Origin: Hamadaea tsunoensis DSM 44101
Lineage (GTDB): Bacteria; Actinomycetota; Actinomycetes; Mycobacteriales; Micromonosporaceae
DNA: 64,000 nucleotides
NCBI RefSeq assembly: GCF_000428945.1
Contig: NZ_AUAX01000008.1
Span: forward strand, 62,001-126,000
Direction: 5' to 3'
Shown: positions 5,213 to 64,000 of the stretch, in pieces
Layout: the number at the start of each line of letters is the position of its first letter
Position numbering within the stretch: the first letter of the stretch is position 1
Position numbers and translations under genes: made by a program
The notes under the pieces: model-generated
The model's database searches: none
Seen by the model: the letters and a program-made list of their open reading frames with translations, nothing else
What the model was told of the DNA's origin: nothing

Positions 5213-5719
5213 ATGTCGACGGAATACTCCAGGTCACTGGGTGCCCGGCTGCGATCCATCCGCACCCAGCAGGGCCTTTCCCTGCAGGGCGTGGAGGAGA
5301 AGTCGAACGGGCGCTGGAAGGCCGTGGTCGTCGGCTCCTACGAACGCGGCGACCGCGCCGTCACCGTGTCGCGCCTCGCGGAACTCGCCGACTTCTACCG
5401 CGTACCGGTCTCGGAGCTGCTGCCCGACGGTGCCGAGGTCAAGCAGTCCGAGGAGCGCGCCCAGAAGATCGTGCTGGACCTGGAGAAGCTCTACGAGTCC
5501 TCGAACGAGGAGCTCGGCTTCGTGGCCCGGTACGCCCGTGCCATCCAGCAGCAGCGCGGCGACTACAACGGCCGCATCCTGACGATCCGCGCCGACGACA
5601 TGCGCGCCCTCGCGATCGTCTACGACAAGAGCCCCTCGGAGCTGACCGACCGCCTGGCCGAACTCGGCGTGCTCGTCCCGGACCCGCGCGCCTTCTTCGC
5701 CAACCAGCAGCAGCAGTAA
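5213..5719 (+). CDS. bldD: Developmental master regulator BldD (c-di-GMP sensor)
   Basis: A 168-residue protein closely resembling streptomycete BldD, which represses sporulation genes during vegetative growth when dimerised by tetrameric cyclic-di-GMP. The N-terminal XRE-type HTH covers about residues 8-72, including RTQQGLSLQGVEEKS and the strongly conserved RWKAVVVGSYERGDRAVTV. The C-terminal domain carries the c-di-GMP signature RxD-X8-RxxD as R115-G-D117 and R126-A-D-D129. The ATG at 5213 is chosen over an in-frame GTG 15 bases upstream because GGGAGGG lies at the right distance and the product then starts MSTEYSRSLGARLR as in the family. Next to pyrR and nusB, this matches the Streptomyces order. 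Confidence 0.97.
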   Translation: MSTEYSRSLGARLRSIRTQQGLSLQGVEEKSNGRWKAVVVGSYERGDRAVTVSRLAELADFYRVPVSELLPDGAEVKQSEERAQKIVLDLEKLYESSNEELGFVARYARAIQQQRGDYNGRILTIRADDMRALAIVYDKSPSELTDRLAELGVLVPDPRAFFANQQQQ

Positions 5720-5898: not shown

Positions 5899-5919
5899 CG
5901 TGTCGCGCCGATCCGCGGC

Positions 5920-6030
5920 GAAGGATGCGTCGCCCCACTCACCTGGCAGTGCAGGCCCCGCCCGGGTTTGGCGGGGCCGGAGCGGTCTCCCGCGCGAGGA
6001 GCGGAGGTGAGATCGACGAACCCGGGACAA
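5920..6030 (-). repeat. Dispersed 3'-end element, copy 1 (candidate structured RNA)
   Basis: A 111-bp copy of an element also found at 28467-28577 and 63220-63319. Read on the minus strand it begins TTGTCCCGGGTTCGTCGATC, 29 nt after the nusB stop. The outer blocks CTCACCT (5938-5944) and AGGTGAG (6005-6011) are complementary. Between them lies a copy-specific hairpin, GGCCCCGCC/GGCGGGGCC (5954-5978). The flanks are nearly identical to the other copies. The extension seen beyond the core in the other two copies is lost here, where the bldD terminator begins. Confidence 0.85.
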
Positions 6031-6059
6031 AATGCCTATAAAAGGATCTTGATCTTGAT

Positions 6060-6491
6060 CTAGTGGGAGTAGTCCGCGATACGTCCCAGGAGGCCGTTGA
6101 GGAAGCGCGGGCTGTCATCCGTGGACAGCTCCTTCGCCAGCTCCACCGCCTCCGTGATCGCCACCGGGTCGTCCACCTCTTCGACGTAGAGGATCTCGTA
6201 GACGGCGATGCGCGCCAGGTTGCGGTCGACGACCGGCATGCGGTCGATCGTCCAGCCCTCGGCGTAGCTCGCGATCAGCTCGTCGATCCGGTCCAGGTGC
6301 TCGGCGACGCCCTCGACGACACTCACCGCGTACGGCAGATGCTCCGGACGCGGGTGTTCCAGTCGCTCGACGTACTCGCTCAGCGTGCGGGCGATGTTGC
6401 GGTCGCGCAGGTCGGCCTCGTAGAGGACGTCCAGTGCCCGCTTGCGTGCCTTGCGGCGGGCGGGCATCTGCGACTTCGGAGCCTCAGCCAT
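6060..6491 (-). CDS. nusB: Transcription antitermination protein NusB
   Basis: A 143-residue all-helical NusB that, with NusE (S10), NusA and NusG, prevents premature termination on rRNA operons. It has a basic N-terminus MPARRKARKRALDVLYEADL and the conserved C-terminal region VDDPVAITEAVELAKELSTDDSPRFLNGLLG. The ATG at 6491 follows the efp stop by 27 nt, so it is likely co-transcribed with efp. Immediately after its stop is a GATC-rich stretch and then the dispersed 3'-end element. Confidence 0.97.
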   Translation of the reverse strand: MAEAPKSQMPARRKARKRALDVLYEADLRDRNIARTLSEYVERLEHPRPEHLPYAVSVVEGVAEHLDRIDELIASYAEGWTIDRMPVVDRNLARIAVYEILYVEEVDDPVAITEAVELAKELSTDDSPRFLNGLLGRIADYSH

Positions 6492-21616: not shown

Positions 21617-24600
21617 TCAGGAGCCGATACCCGGTACGGGCGCGTCGGCGGGCGGCGCGTTGCCGTCGGGCGGTGCGGAACCGTCCCCCGGCGGCTGGTT
21701 CAGCCGGTCGTCGGCGATGGCGTTGTACACCTTGAACGACACCAGCGAGCCCTTGCACTGCGGGGCGGCCTGGCTCTGGTCGGCGTTGGTCGTCGGCCGG
21801 TTCGACAGGAGCTCGTTGGCGCACGGGTTGTCCCTTACCCACAAGTCCAAGGTGTACTCGTCGCGCCGCCAGCACGTGTAGTGCCCGCTGACACCCTTGG
21901 CCGGCGGGCAGTTCGCCACCTTCCACCGGACCCAGCCGGAACTCTCCAACGCCTGCACGTACGCCGCGTTGGTCTCGTCGGGCGACTTCTCCGAGGCCAC
22001 GTCCCGTTCCCGGTACCGGCACTCGATGATGCACCAGCGGCTGCCGGACACCTCGTCGGTGGTCTGGCCGGCCGCCCACGCCGGCACCTCGAGCGAGTTG
22101 AGCGAGGTGAACACGGGATCCTTGGTGGCCGCCCGGACGACCAGGAACAGCGGCAGCGCGCCGAGCACGGTGATGATGACGGCCATCAGGGTCAGCATCC
22201 GCAGCCGCTGCTGTTCACGCATCTGCTTGCGCAGCTCGGAGCGGGCGCCCCGGATCGCGCCCATGCCGGCCTGCAGACCGGCGCGGGCGCCGCGCGGCTG
22301 CGGGCGTCCGTCCGGACCGGACATGCCGGGGCGCGGTTCGGGGATCCCCTGCTGGGGCATCCCGGGCGGAGCCATGCCGGGCGCGTTCATGCCGGGCGGG
22401 TTCATACCGGGCGCGCCCATGCCGGGGCCGCCCATGCCCGGGCCGCCGGGACCTGGACCGTGCGGGCCCGGGCCGTTGGGGCCGCCGAGACCGGGGCCGC
22501 CGGGCTTGCCCATACCCGGGCCGCCGGGACCACCAGGGCCGGCGGGAGCACCAGGGCCGCCCGGCTTGCCCGGACCGCCCGCACCGGGACCACCCGGACC
22601 ACCGGCACCGGGACCGCCGGGTCCGCCCATGCCGGGACCGGGACCACCGGCACCCGGACGGCCGGGGCCGCCCGCGCCCGGGCCGCCGGCACCAGGACCA
22701 CCGACACCAGGACCGCCGACGCCAGGACCACCCGCACCGGGACCGCCGAGGCCGGGGCCACCGCTCTTGCCCGGTCCGCCGGGTCCGGCCGGACCCGCGC
22801 CACGTCCGCCGGGACCGGCGAGGGCATCGCGCCCGCGGCCGCCGCCGCCCGGACCGCCTGCGCCCGGACCACCGCTACCAGGGCCGCCGCCACCGGGTCC
22901 ACCGCTGGGACCGCCCAGGCCGGGGCCGCCGGAGCCGGGACCACCGGGGTCGCCGCTACCGGGTCCGCCCCTGCCGGGGCCGCCCTTGCCAGGACCGCCA
23001 CTGCCGAGACCACCGAGACCGGGGCCGCCCGAACCGGGTGCACCGGCGATGCCGGGACCACCGCCCGGACCGGACCCACCGGGCCCGCCGGCGCCGGAGC
23101 GACCCGCCGGGCCGCCGAGGCCGGGACCACCCGACACCGGGCCGTCCAAGCCACCGGGTCGTCCCCCACCGGAGCCGGGGCCGCCCGAACCGGGACCGCC
23201 GGCACCTGGACCACCCGCGCCGGAACCGGGGCCCGCCGAACCGGCGGGACCCGGGCCGCCGGGAGCACCGGGCGCACCAGGGCCGCCGCGACGCCGGCCG
23301 AGCAGGCCGCCGAGCGCTCCCTGGGCCGCGCCGAACGCCCCCTGGACACCGCCGCGTGGGCCGCCCGCGCCGGGCGGGCCGGATGCCGGACCGCGACCGG
23401 GGCCGGACACCGGCTGGGCCGGCGACGCGGGACCGCCGGGGCGGCCTCGGCCGGGATCGGCGTCGGGGGGCTGCACCGCAGAGGCGTTGTCGCCCATGCG
23501 CGGGCCGCCGTCGCCCGGCTGCGTATTGCGAGGAGCACTGTCCCGCTGCATCAGCGGGCGGAACCGCGCGCCGAGCGTGTCGGTCATCGGGTTGCGCGCG
23601 GGCGGACGCGGCGTCGCGGGTGGCGCGGGCGGCGTCTCACCGCCGCGGCCGGGCTGCTCCGGCTCGCGCGTCTTGCCGAGCGGGTCGCGATCGGCCCGGC
23701 CGCCGCGGCGGCGTTCGGGCTCGGGTTCCCGCGGGTTGCCCAGCAGGTCGCGGTCGGCTCCTCCGGGACGGTCGGCGGTACGCGCACGCTCCGGCTCCCG
23801 GGGGTTGCCGAGCAGGTCCCGGTCGGCGCCGCCGGGACGGTCGGTACGCGCGGCGGCGGCCGGCGGTTCCCGGTCCGGGCCGACTGGCCGATCGGATCGC
23901 GGGTTGCCCAGCAGATCGCGTTCGGGCCCGCCGGGACGGTCCGCCCGCCGCCGTCCGGCCTGCGTACGCGATTCCTCCTCGGCCCGGCGCCGGCCGGTGG
24001 TCTCCTCGTCGACCCGGCGGTGCCCACCGGTCACGGGCTCGTCGTCGACCCGGCGGTGGCCGCCGGTCACGGGTTCGTCGTCCAGTCTTCGGCGACCGCC
24101 CGCAGCCGGCTCCTCCGGGGTACGCCGTCCCAGCAGATCGTCCAGCGAGCGCCGCCCGCTCGGCTCCTCCGCGGCCCGGCGGCCCGGGGGCTCCTCGGCG
24201 GCACGACGGCCGACAGGCTCTTCGGCGGCCCGGCGACCCGGCGGCTCCTCGGCCGCACGACGGCCCACAGGCTCTTCGGCGGCCCGGCGACCCGTGGGCT
24301 CTTCGGCGGCGCGGCGACCCGGCGGCTCTTCGGCGGCGCGGCGGCCGGTCGGCTCCTCCGCGGCGCGGCGGCCGGTCGGCTCCTCCGCGGCGCGGCGGCC
24401 GGTCGGCTCGTCCGGGGCGCGACGGCCGGGCGGTTCCTCCGCGGCACGGCGGGCGGCGCGGGCGGGCGGTTCCGGGTCGGCGGAGCGACGGCGGCCGGGC
24501 GGCGTACCGGGGGCGGCGCCGGGTTCCTCACCGCGCAGTCCGGCCCAGCGGGCGTCACGACCCGCCGGCTCGGCGGCCGGCTCCTCGCGGCGGGGCGTAC

Positions 24601-27213: not shown

Positions 27214-27597
27214 ATGGAGTTGACCGTCGGCCTGTCCGCCCAGGTCCAGCTGCGGGTGAGTGACGCGGACACCGCCCAGGCCCTCGGCTCCGGCGACGTC
27301 CCCGTGCTCGGCACCCCCCGCGTACTCGCGCTCGCCGAGGCCGCCACGGTCGCCGCGACCGCCCGTCACCTGCCGGACGGAAGCACCACTGTGGGCGTAC
27401 GCGTCGAGCTCGACCACCGCTCGCCGACCCCCGTCGGGCGTACCGTCGTCGCGCGGGCCGGCCTGGTCGAGGTGGAGGGCCGACGCCTCACCTTCGACGT
27501 GACGGTGCACGATGGGGACCTCCTCGTCGCCGACGGCCGGGTCGAACGAATCCTCGTCGACCGTCATCGTTTCGTGGAGAAGGCGACCACCGCATGA
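27214..27597 (+). CDS. Hotdog-fold thioesterase (FlK-like)
   Basis: A 127-residue single hotdog domain. The order of catalytic residues matches fluoroacetyl-CoA thioesterase relatives: Thr in [10 protein letters not shown], Glu in LAEAATVAA, and His in [12 protein letters not shown]. It hydrolyses an acyl-CoA or acyl-thioester, substrate unknown. The ATG at 27214 appears leaderless (TATCCT seven nt upstream). Its stop overlaps the start of the metallo-beta-lactamase gene (ATGA), so the two are coupled. Confidence 0.8.
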
Positions 27598-28436
27598 TCA
27601 CCTTCCATGAGATAGCCGACCGGGTCTACCTGGCGACCGAGCCGATGCTCCGGGTCAACGTGACACTCGTGGTCGGCGACGGTCAGGCGCTCGTGATCGA
27701 CACGCTCTCGATCGACGATCACGCGCGGCAGCTCCTCGAGGGCGTACGCACCGTGACGCCATACCCGCTCACGCTGGTCAACACACATCACCACTTCGAC
27801 CACTCGTTCGGCAACGCCGTGCTGTCCGCCGACGGCGCGCCGATCTGGGGACACGAGACGGCCGCCCGCCACCTGCGCGAACGCGGGCCGGTCCTGCAAC
27901 GCGGGTGGTACGAGGAGGCGCTGCCGTCGGACCTCGCCTTCGCCGACGCGCTCGGCCGGGTCACGATCGTGCCGCCGGGCCACACCTTCCACACCGAGTC
28001 CACACTAGACGTCGGCGGACGCGCGGTCACCTTGCGGCACCTCGGCCTCGGTCACACCGACGGCGACCTGGTCGCCGAGATCCCCGACGCCGCCGTCGTC
28101 GTGGCCGGCGACCTGATCGAGGAGGGCGCCGCACCGGGGTTCGGCGACGCGTACCCGATCTCGTGGCCGGACACGCTCGCGGGCCTGCTCGCCCTGGTCG
28201 GACCGTCGACGAGGGTCGTACCGGGCCACGGGACGGTCGTGGACCTCGGCTTCGTCCGCGCCCAGCACGACGAGCTCACCGCGCTGTCCTGGCTGATCCG
28301 CGAGGGGCACCGGGACGGGGCGGACCCGGCCCAGGTAGCGGCGAAGGCGTCGCTGACCCGCTTCGGCGAGCGCGGCCTGATCGAAGCCCAGCACGCGGTC
28401 ACCCGAGGATTCCTGGAGCTCGACGCCGCCCTTTAA
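27594..28436 (+). CDS. Metallo-beta-lactamase fold hydrolase
   Basis: A 280-residue MBL-fold hydrolase. The dizinc motif THHHFDH is near residue 64-70, the third-site histidine is in LGLGHTDGDLV, the bridging aspartate in VVAGDLIEEG and the last histidine in VVPGHGTVVD. The arrangement fits the glyoxalase II or SoxH-like group and is not typical of true antibiotic lactamases. It is coupled to the thioesterase, so both may act on the same thioester or lactone class. The dispersed 3'-end element begins 30 nt after the stop. Confidence 0.88.
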   Translation: MITFHEIADRVYLATEPMLRVNVTLVVGDGQALVIDTLSIDDHARQLLEGVRTVTPYPLTLVNTHHHFDHSFGNAVLSADGAPIWGHETAARHLRERGPVLQRGWYEEALPSDLAFADALGRVTIVPPGHTFHTESTLDVGGRAVTLRHLGLGHTDGDLVAEIPDAAVVVAGDLIEEGAAPGFGDAYPISWPDTLAGLLALVGPSTRVVPGHGTVVDLGFVRAQHDELTALSWLIREGHRDGADPAQVAAKASLTRFGERGLIEAQHAVTRGFLELDAAL

Positions 28437-28466
28437 ACTCACATCCAGATCATTCAAGATCAATTC

Positions 28467-28577
28467 TTGTCCCGGGTTCGTCGATCTCACCTCCGCTCCT
28501 CGCGCGGGAGACCGTTCCGCCCCTATCGCTGCGCTCCGGGGACTCCACTGCCAGGTGAGTGGGGCGAAGCATCGTTC
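28467..28577 (+). repeat. Dispersed 3'-end element, copy 2 (candidate structured RNA)
   Basis: A 111-bp copy starting TTGTCCCGGGTTCGTCGATC, 30 nt after the MBL stop. CTCACCT and AGGTGAG blocks pair at long range. The internal variable segment here is CCCC-14 nt-GGGG (28519-28540), unlike the other copies in sequence but again self-paired. Similarity to copy 3 continues beyond the core to TTGTCGCGACTGTCCGACTT (28618-28637), giving an extended unit of about 170 bp. Confidence 0.85.
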
Positions 28578-28745
28578 ACCGTCGTCCGGTCACCGTTTCA
28601 CCCCTCGCCCTCGGCTTTTGTCGCGACTGTCCGACTTACGGGCGCGATTCACCTAGCGGAAGAGCGTTCCCGCATCTTCCATATCGGACAGTCGGGACGA
28701 AGTCCGGGCAGCCCGTCCGAATGCGGCAAGATCACTCTGATCCTC

Positions 28746-39676: not shown

Positions 39677-39757
39677 CAAGATCCCGCTTGGATCAGGGTT
39701 CCCACCCGAATCTTGGCTCATGATTCGGGTGATTTCCCTGATCCAAACGGGATCTTG
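39677..39757. repeat. Palindromic element family B, copy 1 (after purC)
   Basis: Near-perfect 36-bp arms (39677-39712 and 39722-39757), ends CAAGATCCCG / CGGGATCTTG, inner CACCCGAATC / GATTCGGGTG. The right half matches the copy at 52730-52804 almost base for base (GATTCGGGTGATTTCCCTGA). It lies 36 nt downstream of the minus-strand purC stop. The rest of the 348-bp gap holds the pullulanase promoter and repeats; no gene is seen. Confidence 0.8.
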
Positions 39758-39793
39758 GGGATCGATGTCGGGGCGGCGCCAGGTGGGGGCGGG

Positions 39794-40681: not shown

Positions 40682-40761
40682 TTCCGACGATCTTGCGCGA
40701 ATGTCTCGAAATTCGTCGGCAATGCCCGGAATGCCCGAACATTCGCGCAAGATCGTCGGAA
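40682..40761. repeat. Palindromic element family A, copy 1 (after padR)
   Basis: Perfect 23-bp arms (TTCCGACGATCTTGCGCGAA... and its complement) around a 34-nt centre; 80 bp in total. It lies 11 nt downstream of the minus-strand padR stop. Other copies are at 56361-56433 and 62358-62431. Confidence 0.85.
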
Positions 40762-52729: not shown

Positions 52730-52804
52730 GATCCCGTTGGGATCAGGGATCCGCACGTAATCTTGGACCAAGATTCGGGTGATTTCCCTGATCCCAACGG
52801 GATC
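52730..52804. repeat. Palindromic element family B, copy 2
   Basis: Left arm GATCCCGTTGGGATCAGGG (52730-52748), exact complement at 52786-52804, with an inner AATCTTGG/CCAAGATT pair. The right half is nearly identical to the copy at 39722-39757. It lies 17 nt after the stop of the membrane protein gene. Confidence 0.8.
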
Positions 52805-52909
52805 TTCGGGCTTGCGTCATGGGATGTTCGGCCAGTGGTCGCGCTCCCGCGCTGGACTGTTGCGGGCCCGCCGGGCGATGGTCGCCCGCGCCGGCCGCGG
52901 GAGCATTCC

Positions 52910-56360: not shown

Positions 56361-56433
56361 CGACGATCTTGCGCGAATGTCCGGGCCATTCGGGCATTCG
56401 CCGCGAAATTCGGGACACTCGCGCAAGATCGTC
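56361..56433. repeat. Palindromic element family A, copy 2 (after acnR)
   Basis: CGACGATCTTGCGCGAATGT and ACACTCGCGCAAGATCGTC arms with one or two mismatches around a 30-nt centre. It begins 21 nt after the acnR stop. Confidence 0.85.
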
Positions 56434-56477
56434 AGGAGCTGGGGCGGGCGGCGCGGGAAGGCGGGGCGGAAAACCGG

Positions 56478-62357: not shown

Positions 62358-62475
62358 CGACGATCTTGCGCGAATGCCCCGAGTTTCGTCCGGAATACGG
62401 GAAATGCCCGGACATTCGCGCAAGATCGTCGCGGCTGGGGACCGGACACTCGTGCAAGATCGTCGCCGCTGGGGG
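62358..62475. repeat. Palindromic element family A, copy 3, with duplicated right arm
   Basis: CGACGATCTTGCGCGAATG (62358-62376) pairs with CATTCGCGCAAGATCGTCG (62413-62431). The right arm and its flank (62408-62441) are repeated in tandem at 62442-62475 with a few changes, a 34-bp duplication. Confidence 0.85.
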
Positions 62476-63134: not shown

Positions 63135-63219
63135 CTCCGTCGGCGATACGCCCGGCACACAAGTCGGACAGTCGCGACAAAGGCCGGGGTGAAGGGGTAG
63201 ACGGTGACCGGACCGCGGT

Positions 63220-63319
63220 GAAGGATGCGTCGCCCCACTCACCTGGCAGTGGAGGCCCCCCAGGGCCGGAACGGTCTCCCGCGGGAGGAGCGGAGGTGAG
63301 ATCGACGAACCCGGGACAA
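63220..63319 (-). repeat. Dispersed 3'-end element, copy 3 (candidate structured RNA)
   Basis: A 100-bp copy; on the minus strand it begins TTGTCCCGGGTTCGTCGATC 20 nt after the ABC-F stop. The variable inner stem is GGCCC/GGGCC, the shortest of the three. Similarity to copy 2 extends to 63161 (the TCGGACAGTCGCGACAA block). An AAAGATC/GATCTTT hairpin lies between it and the stop codon. Confidence 0.85.
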
Positions 63320-63339
63320 AAAGATCTTCAAATTGATCT

Positions 63340-64000
<661 letters not shown>

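Follow-up and report, generated by a model that had tools for sequence, protein, structure and literature searches.

A structured intergenic repeat anchored behind stop codons in Hamadaea tsunoensis and other Micromonosporaceae, a probable non-autonomous mobile element

The repeat that occurs three times in the window (the whole 64,000-nt stretch of Hamadaea tsunoensis DSM 44101 DNA analysed here) is probably a mobile element, structured and non-autonomous, whose targets are GATC-type sequences next to stop codons. Two options had been left by the original prediction, a family of structured 3'-UTR elements and a mobile repeat; the latter proved the better one, and the former did not hold in the sense of a strand-fixed 3'-UTR RNA. 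The best explanation for the abundance in Hamadaea is that one version of the element multiplied to about two hundred copies and became part of mosaic spacers together with other palindromes.

The three copies lie where they had been placed, at 5920-6030 (minus strand), 28467-28577 (plus strand) and 63220-63319 (minus strand); the proposed length of 100-111 nt was too short, as defined by the nhmmer profile. Copy A (5908-6033, minus strand, profile positions 2-116) is truncated at its 3' end and stands between the nusB stop codon and a terminator made of a hairpin and a T-run. Copy B (28464-28640, plus strand, positions 2-167; 5' end TTCTTGTCCCGGG, 3' end TTTGTCGCGACTGTCCGACTT) and copy C (63157-63322, minus strand, positions 2-168) are full-length, with cores delimited by the covariance model at 28467-28569 (plus strand) and 63228-63319 (minus strand), respectively. 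As anticipated, the middle segment is variable and still pairs in each copy. The apical stem-loop is closed by GGCCCCGCC/GGCGGGGCC in copy A (5954-5978, minus strand; arms 5954-5962/5970-5978), by CCCC/GGGG in copy B (28520-28541, plus strand; arms 28520-28523/28538-28541), a stem type common to many copies, and by GGCCC/GGGCC in copy C (63254-63267, minus strand; arms 63254-63258/63263-63267). Pfam agreed with the names given to the upstream genes, namely nusB ahead of copy A (6060-6467, minus strand; PF01029), a metallo-beta-lactamase-fold hydrolase gene ahead of copy B (27594-28436, plus strand; PF00753) and, ahead of copy C, an ABC ATPase gene that continues beyond the window (63340-64000, minus strand; PF00005 on 63340-63999); genes were called with a home-made caller, and individual start codons may be wrong. 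The profile-defined 5' ends lie 25, 26 and 16 nt behind the respective stop codons, near the claimed 20-30 nt, and the DNA in between is in each case an AT-rich GATC-type tract (6034-6059, minus strand; 28437-28463, plus strand; 63323-63339, minus strand). The gene on the other side of copy A, at 5291-5719, codes for a BldD-like regulator (PF21179). The common orientation of the three copies to their upstream genes was correctly observed; it is nevertheless uninformative on strand preference, because all three lie in convergent spacers, which always put the same-strand gene on the 5' side.

Further copies were found throughout the 9.48-Mb genome, in which the 27-base core was matched 222 times when as many as 3 mismatches were allowed (115 forward and 107 reverse) and the reversed pattern not at all. 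In 0.93 Mb, most of it chosen for containing copies, 127 matches were obtained with a profile built from 70 rows (62 distinct sequences), and 123 of them keep the 5' end. The full element measures 120-175 nt in this genome (126-177 nt for the window copies), with a folded core of about 85-95 nt (92 positions in the covariance model), internal stems and a GC content of 69-86%; its first 120 nt or so are the part kept by shortened copies such as copy A, and many copies extend to ...TTTGTCGCGACTGTCCGATATG. Inverted pairs are frequent, and 15 of them span 587-1348 nt with their outer ends toward genes; judged from the sequence, the interiors of these 0.6-1.3-kb mosaics consist of other palindromic repeats. 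Copies were also observed within about 500 bases of the contig ends of C1, C5, C10, C12, C28, C31, C34, C38, C40, C50, C51, C55 and C56 of G000. The mosaics may break the assembly, in which case the copy number would be a lower bound.

The element has its 5' end fixed a short way downstream of stop codons, at GATC-type motifs. In this genome, the 123 copies comprise 57 in convergent spacers, 19 tandem sense, 23 tandem antisense, 10 divergent and 14 for which no gene was called on one side. When 0.46 Mb not chosen for its copies was taken (the window and 400 kb of contig 1; spacers of at least 60 nt), a copy occupies 7 of 42 convergent spacers versus 6 of 180 others (Fisher p 0.004). The expected non-random placement relative to gene ends was evident among the convergent copies here, for which a stop codon lies within 35 nt of the 5' end in 40 of 57 cases and of the 3' end in 4 of 57, the low second count being partly due to inverted partners that occupy the 3' side. 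In tandem spacers, the distance to the stop is smaller for sense than for antisense copies (p 0.001). A set of 100 distinct copies from outside this genome, picked by score and not at random, comprised 43 in convergent spacers, 23 in tandem sense and 20 in tandem antisense position and 3 divergent ones, with 5 overlapping a called ORF and 6 at sequence edges. Of the 43 convergent copies there, 28 have a stop codon within 35 nt of the 5' end and 5 have one within 35 nt of the 3' end; a stop that close to the 5' end was found for 16 of the 23 tandem sense copies versus 2 of the 20 antisense ones. The equal standing of both orientations in tandem spacers (19 sense and 23 antisense here, 23 and 20 elsewhere) led to the rejection of a strand-fixed 3'-UTR RNA as the full story. 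Of the 127 copies in this genome, 111 carry the motif AAGATC/GATCTT in their 5' flank, versus 22 of 161 element-free stops and 200 of 3000 random intergenic windows, and outside this genome a wider set of motifs was found on the 5' side of 28 of the 100 copies versus the 3' side of 7.

Homologues in other Micromonosporaceae are diverged. A 21-base core pattern with up to 2 mismatches was absent from 60 relatives, including three of the same genus, and blastn among the relatives gave a single weak match, in G021, reading GGTCCCGGGTTCGTCGTGGGCACGACCGCTGCTCCCGCCGG...CTGCCAGGCCCGCGAC. With this G021 sequence as query, matches at E ≤ 0.001 were obtained in 88 of 300 genomes of the family, the Hamadaea genome among them; two candidates were scored per genome, and the weakest matches may have arisen by chance. 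The 16 matches here and the 0-5 in others that a pattern search gave across 300 family genomes were attributed to chance. The covariance-model search that had been proposed as a check (23 sequences in the model, three of them from the window; threshold E ≤ 0.01) retrieved diverged homologues in 35 of the 121 genomes and 13 of the 44 genera searched, this genome included. Matches numbered at least 35 in the Hamadaea genome and in each of six genomes of g19, which we infer to be Asanoa; five genomes of g7 had 25-30 apiece, two of g66 had 16, and the others had 1-7. A pattern scan of named genomes yielded 17 loci in Asanoa, Phytohabitans flavus and one Hamadaea MAG. The word CACCTCC, whose identity to the anti-Shine-Dalgarno core had been pointed out, turned out to belong to the version of this species; the family consensus has GGGCACGACCG and other genera have no such match, so that a meaning of the match was not supported. 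Rfam gave no match above a gathering cut-off in the window and none at the element over 14 homologue loci (E up to 1), viral contigs searched with two patterns and plasmids searched with one Asanoa copy as query did not contain the element, and no description of it was found in the literature searched through titles and the starts of abstracts. In Asanoa ishikariensis (L221, 1875-2292), a tandem array with a period of 81 nt was observed, made of four 5'-half units and a joining stretch and followed by a complete copy. One homologue lies close to a SAM riboswitch (RF00162, 74 bits; L184, 1277-1408, minus strand).

Taken at the level of the alignments, the base pairing is selected or concerted. 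In the 23-sequence alignment A2, 85.8% of the cells of the apical stem are paired, and both sides have changed in 5 of its 6 pairs. For the whole structure, which was drawn from the same sequences on which it was tested, the percentage paired exceeded all 500 shuffles, as did the number of cells changed on both sides (28 versus 13.0 in shuffles) and the covariation score (0.186 versus 0.103, with slid versions reaching at most 0.077). Pairs with changes on both sides were no more numerous than shuffling allows (8 versus 6.2, 83 of 500 shuffles being as good), the number of further pair types did not go beyond the shuffles (162 of 500), and RNAalifold returned an empty structure for the raw alignment. 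When mutual information with average-product correction, a measure that is not phylogeny-aware, was calculated over 101 distinct sequences (Neff 47), 7 of the 10 top scores were base pairs (apical 58-127, 62-124, 61-125, 63-123, 64-122 and 54-130, plus 6-46), and three were column pairs of another kind (4-46, 56-127 and 16-22). Fitting this alignment to the model gives the inner stem pairs an advantage, but 6-46, 33-45 and 54-130 are absent from the model structure. Pair 6-46 is C-G in 66 and T-A in 32 of 100 sequences, and pair 33-45 alternates between G-C (87) and C-G (11 of 101). The expected covariation was borne out for the apical stem and further pairs across genera, with some A2 measures remaining within the shuffles.

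The claim that conserved pairing without conserved sequence reflects selection on RNA held in part: the apical stem covaries across genera, but within this genome the copies use few shared stem types and not copy-by-copy compensation, with 47 distinct apical sequences among 116 copies falling into few shared cassette types. In 93 sequences from outside this genome, the 508 cells of the apical stem comprise 479 Watson-Crick pairs, 3 G-T, 2 A-C and 24 other combinations. In the H1 helix, 32 G-T versus 5 A-C cells were counted, which lean to the sense strand with base composition uncontrolled. Because wobble pairs are few, stem types are limited and the types differ between orthologous Asanoa sites, these patterns suggest that whole stem cassettes were exchanged rather than slowly compensated. 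The flank words CTCACCT and AGGTGAG are present in all three window copies, but the long-range pairing predicted between them is not kept in this genome, where 58 of 114 parsed copies are fully paired, the mean (5.886) equals that of shuffles (5.889) and no covariation was found; across genera, pairing of columns 14-20 with 140-146 is just moderately kept.

Evidence on mobility came from orthologous loci, and at one of them the element appears, from the sequences compared, to have inserted. The covariance model scored 30 Asanoa loci, with nine further loci left out, and eight loci of the Asanoa genome G112 were compared with five other Asanoa species, presence being judged by eye. The element stood behind the orthologous gene in 29 of 47 species-by-locus cases (21 of 39 without the source genome G112), with per-locus values of 6/6, 6/6, 4/5, 4/6, 3/6, 3/6, 2/6 and 1/6. 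Two loci are therefore filled in all six species, as expected for old insertions or selected retention. At L338, one absent case has an antisense copy farther along, and at L259 the gene was matched at about 80% identity only, so that paralogues are possibly included. At L255, G097 carries an empty site (...CACTACCGCTACTGATCAAAATCAAGGACGATGGCCC, then the terminator), and in G078 28 and 27 nt are alike on the two sides of the element, CGACCACTACCGGTACTAGATACAAATC before and CGAGCACTACCGTTACTGATCAAAATC after it, a likeness equalled by none of 2000 shuffles. The duplication is more decayed in G124 (15 of 2000 shuffles as good), ten bases are alike in G112 (115 of 2000), and nothing significant was found in G133 (330 of 2000); a clear target duplication is accordingly limited to one locus and to two of the four filled species there. 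It covers about 27 nt, spans the stop codon and lies beside the terminator hairpin, with its AAATC end 3 nt ahead of TCCCGGG. Over 110 copies, left and right flanks were not significantly alike (p 0.05), the top scores coming from tandem arrays.

In the nusB spacer, G001 has no element and keeps the terminator, and copy A in this genome stands between the stop codon and the terminator. In G002 (L167) and G003 (L165), both of the same genus, a different palindrome of about 110 nt, GAAAATCGGCCGTCATTTGGCC...GGCCAAATGACGGCCGTTTTC, was seen where copy A stands. A transposase search that covered the Y1 family (PF01797) linked no transposase to the element and found none in this genome, the control being positive in 5 of 14; gene calls on the small contigs C52-C68 (translations limited to the first 90 residues and to C55 and above) suggested no cognate transposase. 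Contig C59 of G000 (L134) carries a pSAM2-like integrative element with a phage integrase (PF00589) and RepSA (PF20199).

The mechanism proposed for the mobile element would start with insertion 3' of short GATC-type motifs, which in these GC-rich genomes are located at and just behind stop codons, with duplication of about 27 nt of target, stop codon included. The duplication would leave the gene intact, and the element would become a hairpin-rich 3' spacer. A duplication across the stop would explain the position of the 5' ends near stops, the GATC-type motif found there and the survival of the genes. The scheme supposes that the one duplication is typical of insertions, that a putative enzyme acting in trans would recognise a folded single strand and mobilise the copies, and that apical stems would be exchanged between copies by gene conversion; a 3'-end function may be added to it. 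A much bolder version, which we regard as improbable, would make these repeats a new family-wide class of mobile folded element, in which a single strand with several helices, either RNA or single-stranded DNA, would be recognised, a long staggered insertion would occur at a GATC-type motif overlapping the stop, the gene would be restored by the duplication, and the result would be a portable 3' end with a cassette-exchanged apical hairpin.

Among known repeats, YPAL/RU-2 of Yersinia offers the closest parallels; it is described as an intergenic element of about 168 bp with internal inverted repeats and without A+T-richness, whose target duplications measure 3-26 bp and whose targets span or adjoin dyad symmetry (PMC2229807). 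Compared by description alone, the Hamadaea/Asanoa element is likewise intergenic, not A+T-rich and provided with internal stems, and its duplication of about 27 nt, seen at one locus only, lies beside a terminator hairpin. By this analogy, the element would work like YPAL. It differs in its phylum, in the anchoring of its 5' end behind stops at GATC-type motifs and in a fold whose pairs covary and that is retained between genera. Correia/NEMIS, RUP, ERIC and other bacterial MITEs are given there as non-autonomous elements, some 100-200 bp long, whose transcripts fold strongly and most of which have target duplications (PMC2229807). According to the same account, most of them have terminal inverted repeats, 5'-TA-3' ends and A+T-richness, none of which was found in the present element, whose 5' end TTTTGTCCCGGG and 3' end GACTGTCCGATATG, compared by eye in this genome, are not mutually inverted. 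The CIR elements of Caulobacter and Brucella are intergenic, have more than one structured arm and are kept between genera (PMC2229807). As far as that description goes, they share several structured helices and conservation between genera with our element, and differ by the GANTC methylation motifs in the CIR loop, of which there are none in the core consensus here.

The most serious rival reading, although a rather unlikely one, is a plain DNA palindrome of the REP/BIME type, which would serve, if it has a role, as a cruciform or as a site for protein binding and whose pairing would be a by-product of palindrome-perfecting repair and gene conversion. REP/BIME sequences of the GTAG and CGTC superfamilies are described as high-copy palindromes downstream of genes and in convergent spacers, often as inverted dimers (PMC3733652). 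The context of our element, downstream of or between convergent ORFs, resembles that of these published REPs, and the inverted pairs and mosaics, the few exchangeable apical stem types and the near absence of wobble pairs agree with such an origin. A single hairpin, however, does not explain the covarying pairs 6-46 and 33-45 outside the apical palindrome, and size and end motif are unlike those of REPs, which are single hairpins of 20-40 bp, whereas the core here measures 85-95 nt and has several helices. The terminal GTAG/CGTC tag is lacking, since the consensus starts with ATGTCCCGGGTCCG, its conserved part ends with GGTCCGCGG and CGTC occurs internally only, and RAYT, of the Y1 transposase family, is absent from this genome. 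Identity with REPs was thus ruled out by size, end tag and the lack of a Y1 transposase.

A selected 3'-end RNA, that is, a factor-dependent or U-tract-free terminator or a 3'-end stabiliser retained behind certain genes, seems less probable still and is best called doubtful. It would agree with the anchoring near stops of sense but not antisense copies in other genomes, with the two Asanoa loci filled in six of six species, with the GC hairpin that, by eye, follows the stop in several element-free species, and with the excess of G-U over A-C on the sense strand of H1, uncorrected for composition. It is at odds with the lack of sense preference in tandem spacers, with an apical stem nearly devoid of G-U and so unlike an RNA-only helix, and with a hairpin not followed by a U-tract; in the copies inspected, the sense strand lacks the T-run immediately after the core that an intrinsic terminator would have. 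Two simple scans of our own were run for terminators, and the counts come from the laxer one, the strict version having found few anywhere. A hairpin precedes 9 of 14 copies located 51-130 nt from the stop, compared with 122 of 267 element-free stops that have one within 130 nt, which argues weakly against this reading; none of the 57 copies within 50 nt, where there is little room, has a hairpin ahead. Hairpins with a T-run after near copies (4 of 57) were not clearly rarer than behind element-free stops (38 of 267). An attC-like site, in which a single-stranded hairpin with a variable end behind stops would be used by a tyrosine recombinase, is highly improbable. The place behind stops and the variable paired apex do resemble attC, but attC sites carry GTTRRRY/RYYYAAC boxes, which are absent from the consensus; the copies lie behind core genes such as nusB and not in cassette arrays, a target duplication of about 27 nt would not be expected from attC recombination, and the sole integrase seen is part of the pSAM2-like element. 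The mobile element anchored at GATC-type motifs is the reading that we prefer.

Small structured repeats have been reviewed mostly for Proteobacteria, with a few other phyla, in the literature consulted (PMC2229807, PMC2267715, PMC2864571, PMC3733652), and Actinobacteria, Streptomyces and Micromonospora appear nowhere in the text of the paper on REPs (PMC3733652). With the present element, Actinobacteria have a family-wide structured repeat with covariation, a defined target beside stops and one pair of empty site and duplication, so that what mobilises such repeats and whether they serve as transcript ends become directly testable questions. Insertions, and not inherited terminators, could account for some of the hairpins behind actinomycete genes.

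Other repeats were also observed in this genome. A second palindromic family, CGACGATCTTGCGCGAATGTC...GACATTCGCGCAAGATCGTCG, carries GATCTTG and occurs in the window at 40685-40758, 56361-56434 and 62358-62431 as well as within element-bounded mosaics. Two more palindromic families are represented in the window, GATCCCG..GGATCAGGG...CCCTGATCC..CGGGATC at 39680-39760 and 52730-52810, and GGGGATCTTGACGGATGTCC... with arms at 62628-62655/62684-62711. Many enriched intergenic 8-mers of contig 1 match GATC-bearing palindromic repeats, and long tandem repeats with units of 15 and 27 nt occupy 22376-23290 and 24108-24479 of the window.
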